DNA of 64,000 bases, from NCBI RefSeq assembly GCF_004358165.1, contig NZ_SMTG01000002.1, forward strand, positions 806,001-870,000, written 5' to 3'. Under the pieces are notes generated by a model. That model was not told the DNA's origin, searched no databases, and saw only the letters and a list, made by a program, of their open reading frames with translations. The DNA is from Luteimonas terrae. GTDB taxonomy: Bacteria > Pseudomonadota > Gammaproteobacteria > Xanthomonadales > Xanthomonadaceae. Position 1 is the first letter of the stretch. Every line of letters starts with the position of its first letter. Shown one piece after another: positions 33,304 through 42,093 of the stretch. The translations under genes were made by a program, and so were the position numbers.

Positions 33304-34161
33304 TCAGTCCGCCGCGTCGGCCTCGTCGCGGCCCTGCTGGCGGATGATCGCAGTCTGCCGCGCGTCCTCGATCGACCACAGCACACCGCGTGTGTCGGCC
33401 TTGCGCGTGTCGAACATGAAGCGGCCGCTCAGCGGCGTGTCGGCCTGCAGGTCACCGGCCTCGTAGAGCTTCCACATCTCCTCGCCGTAATGCGTGTCGG
33501 CGAGCTCGGGCGCGAAGCGCGCCAGCGTGTCGCGGATGTTGTGCACGTCACGCAGCAGCATGTCGCGCGCGTTGTTGTTGCCGGCGGCGCTGACGACCTG
33601 CGGAAAGTCGATGAGCACCGGGCCATCGGGCGCCGCCAGCACGTTGTATTCGGACAGGTCGCCGTGGACCATGCCCAGCACCAGCATCCGCGCAACGTCG
33701 CGCACCAGCATCGCGTGCCACGCGCGCGCCTTGTCCGGTTCGAGTTCCACTTCGCCCAGGCGCGGCGCGCTGAAGCCCTCGGCGTCGGTGACCAGATCCA
33801 TCAGCAGCACGCCGTGGAAGAAGCCGTAGGGACGCGGCACGCGCACGCCCGCGTCGAACAGGGCGTAGAGCGCGTCGACCTCGGTGGTCTTCCACGCGGC
33901 TTCCTGCTCGCGGCGGCCGAACTTCGTGGCCTTGCCCATCGCCCGCTGCTCGCGGCTGCCGCGGACCTTGCGCCCCTCCTGGTACTGCACGCGCGCCTGG
34001 AAGCTGCGCTGGGCCATGTCCTTGTAGACCTTGGCGCAGCGCACCGCCTCGCCGCAGCGCACGACGTAGACCGAGGCTTCCTTGCCGCTCTTGAGCGGAC
34101 GCAGGACGGCATCGACGATGCCGTCCTCGATCAGTGGCTGCAGTCCCTGCGGGATCTTCAT
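33304..34161 (-). CDS. RIO-type serine/threonine protein kinase
   Basis: A 285-residue protein kinase of the RIO family. The ATP-binding part is LKSGKEASVYVVRCGEAVRC with Lys in AKVYKD; the catalytic loop is MVHGDLSEYNVL (Asp and Asn both present), and the metal-binding motif is VLIDFPQVV. An activation segment is absent, as usual for RIO kinases. The ATG at 34161 gives MKIPQGLQPLIEDG; the 11 residues upstream in frame are not needed. Bacterial RIO kinases are common in gammaproteobacteria but their substrates are largely unknown. It is cotranscribed with the pseudouridine synthase gene, which hints at an RNA-related role. Confidence 0.94.
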   Translation of the reverse strand: MKIPQGLQPLIEDGIVDAVLRPLKSGKEASVYVVRCGEAVRCAKVYKDMAQRSFQARVQYQEGRKVRGSREQRAMGKATKFGRREQEAAWKTTEVDALYALFDAGVRVPRPYGFFHGVLLMDLVTDAEGFSAPRLGEVELEPDKARAWHAMLVRDVARMLVLGMVHGDLSEYNVLAAPDGPVLIDFPQVVSAAGNNNARDMLLRDVHNIRDTLARFAPELADTHYGEEMWKLYEAGDLQADTPLSGRFMFDTRKADTRGVLWSIEDARQTAIIRQQGRDEADAAD

Positions 34162-34246
34162 GCGTGGTGATGCGCGTTGGTCGGGGCCGCGCATTGTGCG
34201 GCCTTGACCGGCCAGGCGTCCGAACGGCGCCCGACCGGCGGGACGA

Positions 34247-36718: not shown

Positions 36719-37270
36719 TCAACTCTGCGCCGGTCGCATCCGCCAGCCTGGCGTCATCGCGATCGTCGCCGACTCGCTCATCAGCTGCAGTTCGCCGTCC
36801 TGGATCATCGCGGTCAGGCGCATGCTTCGCTGCAGCAGCGTGACCGCCGCTTCGATCGAATCGGGATCGAGATCCACGACGGTCAGGTTCTTGAGGCGGC
36901 CGAGCGCATTGGCGTTCTTGTCCCACCAGATCGCCGCCGCGTTGCCGCTGTAGTTCACCACCACGACCTGGCGCGCACGGCTGCTGGCCTTGCGGATGCG
37001 GCTCTCGTCGGGCTGGCCGAGATCGATCCACAGTTCGATGTCGCCGGTGTAGTCGCGCAGGCACAGGTCCGGCTCGTCCTCGTTGCTCAGGCCGCGGCCG
37101 AACTCCAGGCGTTCCTGCGCGAACAGCGCGAATGCGATCAGCCGCGCCATCAACCGGTTCTCGGTTTCGGACGGATGCTGGGCCAGCACCAGATCGTGGG
37201 TGGCGTAGTAGTGCCGGTCGAGATCGCTGACCTGCAGTTCGGCTTTGTAGATGGTGGCCTTGGGCGACAT
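36719..37270 (-). CDS. yaeQ: YaeQ family protein
   Basis: A 183-residue member of the YaeQ family, which has a PD-(D/E)XK nuclease-like fold but no firm biochemical role. It begins MSPKATIYKAELQVSDLDRH and contains HPSETENRLMARLIAFALFA, LWIDLGQPDESRIRKASSRA and VVVVNYSGNAAAIWW, all typical. The length is normal. Early suggestions linked YaeQ to RfaH-dependent haemolysin expression, later questioned. It is divergent from the three-gene cluster that starts at 37379, with a gap of about 100 bases that could hold promoters for both. Confidence 0.93.
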   Translation of the reverse strand: MSPKATIYKAELQVSDLDRHYYATHDLVLAQHPSETENRLMARLIAFALFAQERLEFGRGLSNEDEPDLCLRDYTGDIELWIDLGQPDESRIRKASSRARQVVVVNYSGNAAAIWWDKNANALGRLKNLTVVDLDPDSIEAAVTLLQRSMRLTAMIQDGELQLMSESATIAMTPGWRMRPAQS

Positions 37271-37378
37271 GGCGGGAGCCGGCGCGGGAAAGGCGGCGAT
37301 TGTAGGTTAACCATGCGTCAACGCACTGCGCCGCGGCGGTCACAGCCGCATCATTCGGCCGCTGCAAGCATGTGCGCC

Positions 37379-38227
37379 ATGCCAGATCCACGACGTCCCG
37401 CCCCTGCCGCCCTCCTCTCCGATACCCATCCGCCCACGCTCCTCGCGCGTGTCGACGCATGGGACCTGGCCGTCTCCGATGGCCCGGTGATCGCCACCGC
37501 CATCCACGACGGACATGCGCTGCGTCCGTCTCTGCGCGAACGCGTGAAGCTCGACGACGACGCGCGCTTCCGCGAGGAAGACCCGCTGACCAGCCTGCTC
37601 GCCCAAGTGGGTGATGCACGCCTGCGGGTGCGGCAGTCCCGGTTCGAAGTCGATCTCAACCGCCCGCGTGCCGAGGCGATCTACACCGGCCCGGAGGCCT
37701 GCTGGGGTCTGGATGTCTGGAAGACGCCGCTCGACGATGCGGAACGTGCGATCTCGCTCGAACTCTACGACCGCTTCTACGACATGGTCGGAGAACTGAT
37801 CGACCGGACCGTGGCGCGCTGGGGCAGCGTGCTGCTGGTCGACATCCACAGCTACAACCACCGCCGCGACGGCGCGGACGCGGCACCCTCGTCGCAGGAC
37901 GACAATCCCGACATCGAGCTGGGCATTACCACGCTGGATCCGGACCGGTGGGGCGACACCGCGAAGCGTTTCGCCAATGTGCTGCGCCGGCATCCCGTGC
38001 GTGGCGCCCTGCCCGACGTGCGCTGCAACGTGCGCTTCCCGAGCGGCGGACATTTCCCCGAGTGGGTCTATGCGCACTGGGGCGACAAGGTCTGCACGAT
38101 CTCGCCCGAGTACAAGAAGATCTTCATGGACGAATGGAGCGGGCGGGCGGATATTCCCGCGCTGTACGCATTGCGCGATGGCCTGCAGCACGCGGTGGAT
38201 GCGGTCCGTCCGGAGTTCCTGCGTTGA
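37379..38227 (+). CDS. N-formylglutamate amidohydrolase-like protein, first gene of a three-gene cassette
   Basis: A 282-residue protein of the N-formylglutamate amidohydrolase family, zinc hydrolases that cleave amide bonds next to glutamate. Candidate metal and substrate motifs are TAIHDGHALRPSLRE (about residue 40), VDLNRPRAEAIYTGPE, LLVDIHSYNHRRDG and NVRFPSGGHFPEWVY. No histidine-utilisation genes are near, so classical formylglutamate hydrolysis is doubtful. An in-frame ATG at 37370 is an alternative start. The stop (TGA 38225-38227) overlaps the TTG start of the QEGLA gene. The product may act on the metabolite or peptide handled by the next two genes. Confidence 0.87.
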   Translation: MPDPRRPAPAALLSDTHPPTLLARVDAWDLAVSDGPVIATAIHDGHALRPSLRERVKLDDDARFREEDPLTSLLAQVGDARLRVRQSRFEVDLNRPRAEAIYTGPEACWGLDVWKTPLDDAERAISLELYDRFYDMVGELIDRTVARWGSVLLVDIHSYNHRRDGADAAPSSQDDNPDIELGITTLDPDRWGDTAKRFANVLRRHPVRGALPDVRCNVRFPSGGHFPEWVYAHWGDKVCTISPEYKKIFMDEWSGRADIPALYALRDGLQHAVDAVRPEFLR

Positions 38228-39438
38228 GCGCCGCCGTGCGCGAACGCCCGGTCGCCAAGCCACTGCCCCCGGTCGCCGAACGGGTCGATGCGAGCCTGGC
38301 CGCGCTGGACGCGCGTCTGGACTGGCTGCTGGCCCTGTCGCCGGTCGACGGTGTGGGACTGTGGAAAGCTTTCGATGCGTCGGGCCGGCGCGACGAACCG
38401 GTCCTGCGCTACGTCGATCTCGACGCGGATCTGCCGGCCACGCGCGCCGCGCTCGACGCCCTGCCGATCGCGGACATCGAGTCGCCCGCGCTGCAGGCCC
38501 TACTCGCCGAAAAACAGCGCGAGCTCGGCCGCATGATCGACCTGGTCGAACAGCGCGACCGCCCCGGTTTCGTCGATGCCAGCGTGGCGCTGTTCGGCGC
38601 GATCGAGCCCGAGCTGCTCGCACTGGCCGAGCGCATCCTCGGCACCGTCGGCGTCAGCGAGCCGTTGCCCGCGGACTGCGGCATCGAGGTGGTGCGCCAG
38701 GCGGTCGATGCGGAAATCGAGTGGTATCGCGCGCAGGCGCCCGATTTCCACATCGACGTGGTCGTCGATACCGACATCAGTTCGATGCTGATGGTCTCGC
38801 ACGGCACGTTCTACATCGACGGCAACATCCGCCTGCCCGCCGCGCGCGTGCAGCCGCTGATCCAGCACGAGATCGGCACGCACGTCGTCACCCGCCACAA
38901 CGGCCGGCAGCAGGCGCTGCGCCAGCTGGAAGTCGGACTGGCGCACTACGACCCGATGCAGGAAGGTCTGGGCGTGCTCGGCGAGTACCTGTCGGGCTAT
39001 CTGCCCGGCGAGCGCCTGCGCATCCTCGCCGCGCGTGTGGTCGCCACCGAAATGGCGGCGCGCGGCGAGTGCCTGCCTGAAATCTTCGCCTGTCTGCACG
39101 AAGCGCATGAGTTGGCCACCGACGACGCCTTCGATGTCGCGGTGCGCGCGCGGCGCGGCGGTGGCCTGACCAAGGATGCGGTCTACCTGCGCGGCATCCG
39201 CGATCTGCTGGCCTATCTCGCGGCGGGCGGCGAGTTCGACGCACTGTTCCTCGGCAAGTTCGCGCTGCCGCAACTCGAACTGCTGGATGCGCTGGTCGAC
39301 GACGGCTGGATCGTGCCGCCGGACCTGCTGCCGCGCTATGCCTGCGCCCCCGATTTCCACACGCGACTCGATGCATGCCGGCGCACGCCGGTCGAGCGCC
39401 TCTACCAGACCCACCGCCCCCCGGAGCACTGTGCATGA
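38224..39438 (+). CDS. QEGLA-motif protein (DUF1704), predicted HExxxH metallopeptidase
   Basis: A 404-residue protein of the family annotated as flavohemoglobin expression-modulating QEGLA motif protein (DUF1704/TIGR02421). HEIGTH at residues 215-220 and QEGLG at 246-250 (here Gly replaces the usual final Ala) are both present. The eukaryotic MATCAP tubulin tyrosine carboxypeptidases share this domain and its HExxxH zinc motif, so a peptidase or amidase role is inferred. No signal peptide is present, so it is cytosolic. The TTG start at 38224 overlaps the previous stop; the stop overlaps the next ATG (ATGA). A GTG at 38236 is an alternative start. Confidence 0.86.
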   Translation: MSAAVRERPVAKPLPPVAERVDASLAALDARLDWLLALSPVDGVGLWKAFDASGRRDEPVLRYVDLDADLPATRAALDALPIADIESPALQALLAEKQRELGRMIDLVEQRDRPGFVDASVALFGAIEPELLALAERILGTVGVSEPLPADCGIEVVRQAVDAEIEWYRAQAPDFHIDVVVDTDISSMLMVSHGTFYIDGNIRLPAARVQPLIQHEIGTHVVTRHNGRQQALRQLEVGLAHYDPMQEGLGVLGEYLSGYLPGERLRILAARVVATEMAARGECLPEIFACLHEAHELATDDAFDVAVRARRGGGLTKDAVYLRGIRDLLAYLAAGGEFDALFLGKFALPQLELLDALVDDGWIVPPDLLPRYACAPDFHTRLDACRRTPVERLYQTHRPPEHCA

Positions 39439-40499
39439 CCGATGGCTCTTCCCTGCGTATCGGCTTCGTCGTCAACGACGTCGCCACCGAGCAGGACAAC
39501 TACACCACCATCCGTCTCGCACGGCGCGCGTTGGCACGTGGCCATGAGGTCGCACTGATCGGTCTGGCCGACTTCACCTACGACGCCGACGGTACCGTGC
39601 GCGCCTGCGCGCACATGCCCTGCGAGACCGACTACGCGGACGATGCGGCGCTGCTGGCGGATCTGCAGTCGGAAGAATGCCCGACCGAGCGCATCTCGGT
39701 GGACGACCTCGACGTGCTGATGCTGCGCAGCGATCCCGCAGACGAGATGGTCGAGCGGCCGTGGGCACCCGGCAGCGGCCTGCTGTTCGCCCAGCTCAGC
39801 GCGCTCAAGCGCGCGCTCGTGGTCAACGATCCAACCCATCTCACCGATGCGTCGAACAAGACCTATTTCCAGCATTTCCCCGAGATCGTCCGTCCGGTGA
39901 CCTGCATCAGCCGGGATCCCGAGGAGATCAAGGCCTTCATCACCGCACGCGAGGGCTACGGCGTCATCAAACCGTTGCAGGGGTCCGGCGGCCAGGGCGT
40001 ATTCGTGGTGACGCCCGAAAGCGGCGGCAACCTCAACCAGATGATCGACGCGGTGCTGCGCGACGGTTACGCGATCGCGCAGGAGTACCTGCCCAAGGCC
40101 AAGGACGGCGACCTGCGCCTGCTGATGCTCAACGGCCGCCCGCTCGAAGTCGACGGCACCTACGCCTGCATCCGTCGCTACAACGACAGTGGCGATGCCC
40201 GCAGCAACATCAGCGCCGGTGGCAAGTACGAGATGGCCGTGCCGGATGCCGATGCGCTGCGACTGGCCGAACTCGTCGCACCGAAGCTGATCCGCGACGG
40301 CATGTACTTCGTCGGCCTCGACATCGTGGGCGACAAGCTGATGGAAGTGAACGTCGACACGCCCGGCGGCATCAACATGCTCGAGGAACTGACGGGCCTG
40401 GATTTCTCCGGTCGCATTCTCGAAGACCTCGAGCGCAAGCTGCGCCTGCGCAGGCATTACGGCAAGACGCTCGGCAACGTCGAACTCGCGATGCTCTGA
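39435..40499 (+). CDS. ATP-grasp ligase, glutathione-synthetase-like
   Basis: A 354-residue ATP-grasp enzyme resembling prokaryotic glutathione synthetase. An N-terminal domain (LRIGFVVNDVATEQDNYTTI) precedes the ATP-grasp core: YGVIKPLQGSGGQGVFVV (about residues 177-194), AIAQEYLPKAKDGDLRLLML, and the Mg-binding end DKLMEVNVDTPGGINMLEEL. Such enzymes join a carboxylate to an amine through an acyl phosphate. It is longer than E. coli GshB and sits with an amidohydrolase and a predicted peptidase rather than with gshA, so it may be a paralogue making another peptide-like compound. The ATG overlaps the QEGLA stop (ATGA). Confidence 0.86.
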   Translation: MTDGSSLRIGFVVNDVATEQDNYTTIRLARRALARGHEVALIGLADFTYDADGTVRACAHMPCETDYADDAALLADLQSEECPTERISVDDLDVLMLRSDPADEMVERPWAPGSGLLFAQLSALKRALVVNDPTHLTDASNKTYFQHFPEIVRPVTCISRDPEEIKAFITAREGYGVIKPLQGSGGQGVFVVTPESGGNLNQMIDAVLRDGYAIAQEYLPKAKDGDLRLLMLNGRPLEVDGTYACIRRYNDSGDARSNISAGGKYEMAVPDADALRLAELVAPKLIRDGMYFVGLDIVGDKLMEVNVDTPGGINMLEELTGLDFSGRILEDLERKLRLRRHYGKTLGNVELAML

Positions 40500-40565: not shown

Positions 40566-41795
40566 TCAATCGCCTGCGGGATGGTCCGCGGGCGCGACGC
40601 GCGATCGGTCGTCCGGCGCATGCCGGCGCAGGTGCAGCGCCGCGAACCACGCGACTGCCAGCAGGCCGAGTGCGAGCGACGCCAGCGCCGGCCAGCCGCC
40701 GTGTTCCCAGAACCAGCCGCTGCATGCGCCCACCACGCTGGCGCCGAGGTAGTACGACAGCAGATACAGCGACGCGGCATGGCTGCGATGCGTGCCGCCG
40801 AGCCGGCCCACCCAGGTGCTGGCCGAGGCGTGCGCGACGAAGAAGCCGATGGTTAATACGGCCACGCCAGACACGATCAGCCACAGATGGTGTGCCAGCG
40901 TCAGGGCCACGCCGATCATCGCCACCCCCACGCCCGCGAGCACCACCGGGCCACGACCGAACCGGTCCGAGGCGCCGCCGGCGATCGACGAACTGGCGAT
41001 GCCGAACACGTAGGCGCTGAAGATCCAGCCGATCTGCGAGGGGCCCAGCCCGAATTCCGGACCGCCGAGCCGGAAGCCCAGATAGTTGTAGACGCTGACG
41101 AACACGCCCATCACCAAGAACGGCACCGAGAACAGCCACGGCAGGTGCGGATCGCGCAGCTGGTCGCGCCAGGCCCGCAGATGAAAGGCGAGCGAGACGC
41201 CGCGACGACGCACGAAATGTCGCGACGGCGGCAGCAGCCAAAGAAAGGCCAGCGCGAGCAACAGATCGAAGAGCCCCAAGGTCATCAGCGCATGCCGCCA
41301 TGTCATCCACTCGCCCAGCAGGCTGACGCCCAGCCGCCCGGTCATGCCGCCGAAGGCGTTGCCGGCGACGTACAGACCGACCGCGGCGCCGAGCCGCTGG
41401 GGCGGCAGTTCTTCGGCGAGGTACACCATCGCCACTGCCGGCACACCGCCGAGCGCGATGCCCGCGAGCGCGCGCACTGCGACCAGCGCGTTCCACTGCG
41501 GCAGCATCGCCGCCAACAGCGTCAGCAAAGCGGCCAGCGCCATCGAGCCGAACATCAGGCCGCGCCGTCCCAGCGAATCGGACACCGCGCCGGCGCAGAA
41601 GATCGACACCGCCAACCCGAATGTCGCCAGCGAAAGCGGCAGCGAACTCTCCGCGGGCCCGACGCCGAATTCGCGCGCGAACTCCGGCAGCAGCGGTTGC
41701 ACGCCGTAAAGCAGCGAGAATGTGGCGAAACCGGCGAGGAACAGCGCCAGCCGGATGCGGCCGGGGCGCAAGGGCGCCGGCGGAAGCGTGGACAT
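40566..41795 (-). CDS. Major facilitator superfamily transporter (YnfM-like)
   Basis: A 409-residue, 12-helix membrane transporter. The first helix is RLALFLAGFATFSLLYGVQP; the MFS signature loop between helices 2 and 3 is GAVSDSLGRRGLMFGSMALA, and the second-half counterpart is GGASDRFGRGPVVLAGVGVA. FALLYxVQPLLPEF is typical of the YnfM/inner-membrane efflux group. The substrate is unknown; relatives export arabinose or drugs. The ATG at 41795 (MSTLPPAPLRPGRIRL) is chosen because the upstream 40 codons in frame are Pro/Arg/Cys-rich and not membrane-like. It converges on the ATP-grasp gene with a 66-base gap. Confidence 0.92.
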   Translation of the reverse strand: MSTLPPAPLRPGRIRLALFLAGFATFSLLYGVQPLLPEFAREFGVGPAESSLPLSLATFGLAVSIFCAGAVSDSLGRRGLMFGSMALAALLTLLAAMLPQWNALVAVRALAGIALGGVPAVAMVYLAEELPPQRLGAAVGLYVAGNAFGGMTGRLGVSLLGEWMTWRHALMTLGLFDLLLALAFLWLLPPSRHFVRRRGVSLAFHLRAWRDQLRDPHLPWLFSVPFLVMGVFVSVYNYLGFRLGGPEFGLGPSQIGWIFSAYVFGIASSSIAGGASDRFGRGPVVLAGVGVAMIGVALTLAHHLWLIVSGVAVLTIGFFVAHASASTWVGRLGGTHRSHAASLYLLSYYLGASVVGACSGWFWEHGGWPALASLALGLLAVAWFAALHLRRHAPDDRSRVAPADHPAGD

Positions 41796-41913
41796 CGGAA
41801 CGGCACAACGACGCGGGGCCGCCAGTATCGGCGGCGCGTGCGATGCGGCCAACCGTTGGCGCGGAACACTGTCGATCACGGGCCATGGACCGGGTGCGGT
41901 GCAGCCTGACGGC

Positions 41914-42093
41914 ATGCAGGATCTGGCGACACTGCGCTGCCCCTGGTGCGGCGAACGCTTCGAGACACTGGTCGACGCCAGTGCGGGCGATGCCGACTAC
42001 GTCGAGGACTGCCAGGTGTGCTGCCGTCCGATCGAAATGCAGCTGTCGGTGGTCGACGACGGCTTCCGGCTCGACGCCGATCGCGAAAGCTGA
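41914..42093 (+). CDS. CPXCG motif-containing cysteine-rich protein
   Basis: A 59-residue protein with LRCPWCGERFETLVDAS and DCQVCCRPIEMQLSVVDDG, i.e. two CxxC pairs that should bind one zinc ion, as in the small CPXCG family. The function is unknown. It starts MQDLATLRC at the ATG at 41914; the frame is open upstream to 41722 but that part overlaps the start of the divergent MFS gene. It is convergent with the next small gene, 16 bases away. Confidence 0.87.
   Translation: MQDLATLRCPWCGERFETLVDASAGDADYVEDCQVCCRPIEMQLSVVDDGFRLDADRES

Follow-up and report, generated by a model that had tools for sequence, protein, structure and literature searches.

A widely spread three-gene module of an FGase-like hydrolase, a MATCAP-type metallocarboxypeptidase and an ATP-grasp ligase in Luteimonas terrae and other bacteria

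Glutathione synthetase (GshB) and RimK-type ligases activate a carboxylate and then join it to an amino acid, and the N-acetylaspartylglutamate (NAAG) synthetase of animals is also an ATP-grasp enzyme. This synthetase is described as joining N-acetylaspartate (NAA) and glutamate, and glutamate carboxypeptidase II (GCPII) as cleaving NAAG back (PMC8836185), while NAA is hydrolyzed by aspartoacylase (PMC10998430). The human tubulin carboxypeptidase MATCAP, or TMCP1 (KIAA0895L), is reported to carry an HExxxH motif with a predicted third metal ligand in an EEG motif, to be inactive as the E281A variant, and to respond to metals, with zinc as an inhibitor and manganese or cobalt as activators (PMC10499314). 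Here we describe a locus of Luteimonas terrae in a stretch of 64,000 nucleotides that we call the window (contig NZ_SMTG01000002.1, positions 806,001 to 870,000). A gene for a bacterial relative of MATCAP lies there between the genes for a hydrolase of the formylglutamate amidohydrolase (FGase) family and a ligase related to GshB. The features of this trio are as follows, in window coordinates.

37379..38227, forward strand: FGase-like amidohydrolase gene (gene 1), PF05013, 282 residues
38224..39438, forward strand: MATCAP-type metallocarboxypeptidase gene (gene 2, product P0002), PF08014, 404 residues, TTG start
39435..40499, forward strand: GshB-related ATP-grasp ligase gene (gene 3), 354 residues
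38224..38227, forward strand: TTGA, overlap of the gene 1 stop and the gene 2 start
39435..39438, forward strand: ATGA, overlap of the gene 2 stop and the gene 3 start
38866..38883, forward strand: HEIGTH metal-binding motif, residues 215-220 of P0002
38959..38970, forward strand: QEGL motif with the probable third metal ligand E247, residues 246-249 of P0002

The trio is a dedicated, widely spread module. A search with MATCAP proteins alone yielded 550 loci, and among the 80 most similar to the window MATCAP, in which near relatives are over-represented, 75 carried the complete trio on one strand, ordered FGase-MATCAP-ligase. The 75 were found in eight phyla (Pseudomonadota, Campylobacterota, Myxococcota, Planctomycetota, Bacteroidota, Actinomycetota, Gemmatimonadota and Kiritimatiellota), several of the distant ones in metagenome bins. 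Five of the 80 were incomplete: two reach contig ends (L096 and L127), two are short contigs that show no partner gene in the sequence available (L140 and L148), and one has its partners on the other strand (L152). The FGase of L120 was missed by a single-sequence search and found by a profile. L115 and L138 were counted among the 75 despite broken frames; their trio genes are split into several frames (L115:6695-7839 and L138:6226-8181), by sequencing error or decay. The initial annotation had described a trio with overlapping stop and start codons, and the three frames are indeed open at the positions listed above, with a 4-base overlap at both joints. A possible start codon with a 4-base overlap to the preceding stop recurs at the first joint in 64 of the 75 loci and at the second in 67; the arrangement is therefore not due to chance.

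That annotation had also named a fixed co-occurrence of the three genes across phyla as a test of a dedicated system. The 75 loci and eight phyla bear this out, but only for some MATCAP groups. Among 120 loci, trio-type MATCAP matches had both partners within 6 kb in 91 of 102 cases, the ligase only in 5, the FGase only in 2 and neither in 4; L054 and L113 are apparently one locus, so that the 102 include at least one duplicate. By contrast, neither partner accompanied any of the 18 other MATCAP matches (14 of the ordinary QEGLA type and 4 of a HEIQTH type, that is, the 22 matches below 230 bits minus 4 fragments from the broken genes in L115 and L138), which rules out the trio as a general feature of DUF1704 genes. 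The window genome itself holds two PF08014 genes, the one in the window and an ordinary MATCAP/QEGLA gene on another contig (383.3 bits; G000:C7:238980-240059, L001 and L070), with no FGase or ligase neighbor in the 11 kb read.

A second arrangement emerged from 12 loci fetched around Campylobacterota and Bacteroidota matches, which lie outside the count of 102 and the tree described below. Ten of them have FGase, MATCAP and ligase genes, L207 has MATCAP and ligase, and L214 has an ordinary MATCAP alone. The order is ligase-FGase-MATCAP (type II) in L209, L210, L211 and L212, and L205 and L206 are hybrids with a ligase, an FGase, a long MATCAP and a second ligase. FGase and MATCAP are fused into a single protein in L209 (Bacteroidota sample, 667 residues) and in L184 (Planctomycetota sample, 674 residues), and tandem ligase genes were seen in L146 (two), L178 (three) and L194 (two). 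A gene of the sodium:dicarboxylate symporter family adjoins the ligase in five of seven type II or hybrid loci, four of the five being confirmed by Pfam; two of these symporters were scanned and were nearest to GltP, far under its cut-off. In two Bacteroidota loci, a rhodanese-domain gene lies between the type II ligase and the FGase (L205:7819-8637 and L210:3770-4606).

In a tree of 52 MATCAP rows, 31 trio-type proteins fell on one side of a branch with support 100/99, and 14 ordinary MATCAPs formed another group with support 100/100. L184, the only type II locus in this tree, L185 and the human row had no settled position, the human branch being very long; the tree label "fusion" spans L184 and L185, of which L185 is unfused. 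A further MATCAP subfamily, with HEIQTH or HEIETH and TEEGLATF, was noted in L186 to L189 of the Planctomycetota sample, and in L187 and L188 the gene that follows it resembles Ffh (SRP54) by eye. G282, a genome of the window's family, clustered with two rhizobial plasmid rows (support 99/94), and an Alteromonas row was placed among alphaproteobacterial and Lysobacteraceae rows; these placements suggest horizontal transfer. The three rhizobial plasmids inspected, out of 117 plasmid records with a match, all carry the trio in the same gene order, and the module is probably mobile. On one of them, a Sinorhizobium plasmid, FGase and MATCAP are separated by two genes for group II intron reverse transcriptases (L051:3342-6500). 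A phage origin was rejected, since none of the 28 stretches in viral_contigs that matched a pattern encodes a relative of alignment A2.

The module is widespread but sparse, as the genome counts per phylum show. The long-form alignment A2 had matches in 29 of 149 Planctomycetota genomes (exceeding 500 bits in 8), 12 of 198 Bacteroidota genomes and 2 of 121 Campylobacterota genomes, each count including the center genome, a known trio carrier. In the window's phylum, a Pfam MATCAP of any kind was found in 14 of 150 genomes, the window's own included. In the window's taxonomic order, the window MATCAP was matched in 108 of 200 sampled genomes, the ordinary type being the common one; close matches came from its own genome, G272 (60% identity) and G282 (37%) only, and the next best reached 78.9 bits. 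Two of the long MATCAP matches are reported by the search with a single internal TGA (G499:C8:65893-67767 and G494:C144:18623-20440).

The assignment of the middle gene product to the MATCAP relatives, made in the initial annotation, agrees with its match to PF08014 (251.6-251.9 bits, cut-off 27), its fold, which is that of MATCAP, and its catalytic residues: H215, E216 and H220 of HEIGTH and E247 of QEG are invariant columns in the 33 rows of alignment A3. P0002 is predicted to be a C-terminal carboxypeptidase. It shares PF08014 with the human enzyme, at 21% identity in a structural alignment, but is bacterial, operon-borne and found in cells without microtubules. Its closest relatives, up to 85% identical, are in Luteimonas and other Lysobacteraceae. 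With the flavohemoglobin expression-modulating QEGLA protein of TIGR02421 it has the Pfam domain in common, but it scored 266.8 bits against a cut-off of 338.65, 72 bits short; the fused type II MATCAP of L209 passes that cut-off (381.3 bits). Ordinary QEGLA rows read HEAxxH, HEGxxH or HEVxxH, whereas the window MATCAP reads HEIGTH and falls in a separate clade. The window protein is the short form, whereas MATCAPs outside its clade usually carry an N-terminal degenerate FGase domain. A sequence search for a solved relative of this pseudo-FGase domain gave a best E value of 0.05, and a search of the rest of the window genome for a stand-alone pseudo-FGase gene, run without a positive control, gave no match.

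The gene 1 product matches PF05013 with 77.4 bits (cut-off 28.9), and the FGase residues H43, E67, D92-x-N94-R95, D155-x-H157 and E244 are invariant in the 18 rows of alignment A4. HutG was considered and rejected (15.1 bits against a TIGR02017 cut-off of 278.75); 15 of the 18 A4 members matched the HutG model at all, with a best E value of 1.8e-11. HutG and the AstE/aspartoacylase enzymes of the M14-like clan have the PF05013 family and the DxNR motif in common with the window FGase, and gene 1 probably encodes an N-acyl amino acid hydrolase. Two loci with no FGase in the stretch read contain an AstE/aspartoacylase-family gene instead: in L065 it overlaps the MATCAP start (PF24827, 126.6 bits), and in L207 it directly follows the ligase (69.6 bits). 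AstE and aspartoacylase take acyl groups off Glu and Asp, and this chemistry, together with the occurrence of such genes where the FGase is lacking, suggests by analogy that the role of the FGase-like enzyme may likewise be acyl removal. In the loci scanned for the motif, no further AstE-type gene adjoined MATCAP, and one extra motif match (L092) looks spurious.

The gene 3 product has the ATP-grasp fold in common with GshB and matches Pfam GSH-S_ATP with 152.8 bits (cut-off 23). It remained below the cut-offs of the glutathione synthase models TIGR01380 (171.9 bits against 299.05) and PRK05246 (193.2 against 272), and below that of the closest NCBIfam model, the glutathione synthetase PRK12458 (397.8 against 408), which four ligase relatives tested exceeded (428-445). 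The equivalents of E. coli K125, K160, R210, R225, R233, N235, D273, E281 and N283, presumably catalytic positions, are invariant in the GshB and trio sets. The two sets differ in the loop after the metal-binding E-x-N: GshB reads SPT, with T in all eight GshB rows, whereas 90 trio rows have G, giving PT in GshB against PGG or PGA in the trio ligases, and TPGG in the window ligase. The view that this ligase is no genuine GshB is consistent with its scores and with a separate strong GshB in the window genome, but applies less cleanly to three type II ligases, which exceed the GshB cut-off of PRK05246 (274.4-286.5), though not that of TIGR01380, and also pass PRK12458.

The trio is flanked by genes on the opposite strand, YaeQ (36719-37270) and a major facilitator superfamily (MFS) transporter (40566-41915), with gaps of 108 bases before and 66 after, and so the transcription unit likely consists of these three genes alone. 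A promoter and terminator scan gave nothing exceeding shuffles. Gene 1 could equally well start at an in-frame ATG at 37370, 9 bases before 37379. Further upstream, on the minus strand, lie an S46 family peptidase gene (PF10459; 34247-36640), two genes from the trio, and a gene for a PA4780-family RIO1-like kinase (33304-34194; 429.6 bits against a cut-off of 350). In four loci of the window's phylum, a regulator gene resembling the LysR type by eye lies close to a full or partial trio (L064:8530-9378, L066:9240-10115, L067:1030-1923 and L068:9156-10064). No fourth gene was conserved across phyla among frames of at least 100 residues in 42 loci, and the flanks of 13 loci differ by eye. None of the titles listed in our literature search describes the trio; a 2009 survey of ATP-grasp amidoligase neighborhoods by Iyer and colleagues may already list this one.

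From folds and motifs, the class of chemistry of the trio can be assigned with fair confidence. The reading we favor, about which we remain evenly divided, is that the trio may be a make-and-break module acting on one shared peptide-like substrate; that this substrate would be an N-acyl Glu or Asp dipeptide is a more tentative proposal. The ligase would take an acidic amino acid or short peptide, N-acylated or gamma-linked, activate its carboxylate and join a further amino acid to it, the MATCAP-type enzyme, with its HExxxH plus Glu, would take off the C-terminal residue, and the FGase-like hydrolase would split the remaining N-acyl amino acid. The animal NAAG cycle, which would be a functional analogue of the trio, combines the same three classes, a ligase, a C-terminal carboxypeptidase and an N-acyl amino acid hydrolase. 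It differs from the trio in that the ligase and hydrolase are divergent and the carboxypeptidase is unrelated to GCPII, which to our knowledge is not a MATCAP relative. The proposal takes the folds, catalytic residues, conserved linkage, fusions and pseudo-FGase domain as they appear in sequences and models, and adds to them a substrate class, a direction of flux and a putative physical FGase-MATCAP complex.

Several points weigh against a shared make-and-break cycle. A role of the FGase N-R pair in binding the substrate carboxylate, as in the M14 clan, is presumed. Replacement of the FGase by an AstE-type gene was seen in two loci only, and the five symporter loci probably represent one event, because their other neighbors are also common to them. 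Some sets are partial in the stretch read, L065 and L185 lacking the ligase and L068, L180, L181 and L193 the FGase. Tandem ligases could make a product longer than a dipeptide. Finally, the protein distance matrices of the three genes correlate at 0.84-0.91 over 45 loci, and at 0.83-0.88 over 26 distant loci, where 2000 permutations reached no more than 0.76-0.79, but such values are expected for any co-inherited genes; they speak for common inheritance, not common function.

Alternatively, the trio may edit protein C-terminal tails, the ligase adding a residue, MATCAP removing it and the FGase trimming further, much as in the tubulin tyrosination cycle. We consider this somewhat unlikely, as the 42 loci show no conserved protein gene of at least 100 residues next to the trio and the ligase is closest to GshB, which works on a small peptide. 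More doubtful still is a reading of the trio as a bacterial forerunner of the tubulin tail code or a parallel to it, in which a MATCAP nearer to the eukaryotic enzyme than ordinary QEGLA proteins are would work with the ATP-grasp ligase and the M14-like hydrolase on the C-terminus of a bacterial protein, adding and removing residues in a complex formed through the active or fossil FGase domain. The bit comparison was uneven (33 rows in A3 against 13 in A5), and the long-branched human row, with no settled place, speaks against tail editing as well.

The trio might instead build a peptide natural product that the hydrolases tailor or mature. This would fit the tandem ligases of L146, L178 and L194, the scattered distribution and the signs of transfer. 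We regard it as unlikely, as no conserved exporter or carrier gene of at least 100 residues accompanies the trio across phyla, a check that does not extend to shorter precursor genes, and as the 108 and 66 bases around the window trio leave no space for another gene.

Nor does it seem probable that the trio serves glutathione or a gamma-glutamyl analogue, with a ligase acting as alternative glutathione synthetase and two hydrolases that recycle the peptide. The proximity to PRK12458 and the three type II ligases that pass both PRK12458 and PRK05246 argue for it, as do 8 of 24 trio genomes in which a GCS2 gene is present (weak in one) and a separate GSH-S_ATP match above 200 bits is missing. 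However, a separate strong GshB is present in 7 of the 24, the window's included, and the T of the GshB SPT loop is G in the trio ligases; 9 of the 24 have neither GCS2 nor Glu_cys_ligase, a weak point since all nine are metagenome bins. Three ordinary housekeeping genes merely traveling together, as their broad families and generic names might suggest, are highly improbable given the fusion, the overlaps, the two gene orders and the fossil FGase domain on MATCAP.

The database names of the trio members probably mislead: the generic names formylglutamate amidohydrolase, flavohemoglobin expression-modulating protein and glutathione synthetase mask one conserved module. Its substrate, if known, would point to a new metabolite or protein modification in bacteria, and to the role of MATCAP-type enzymes in cells without tubulin.

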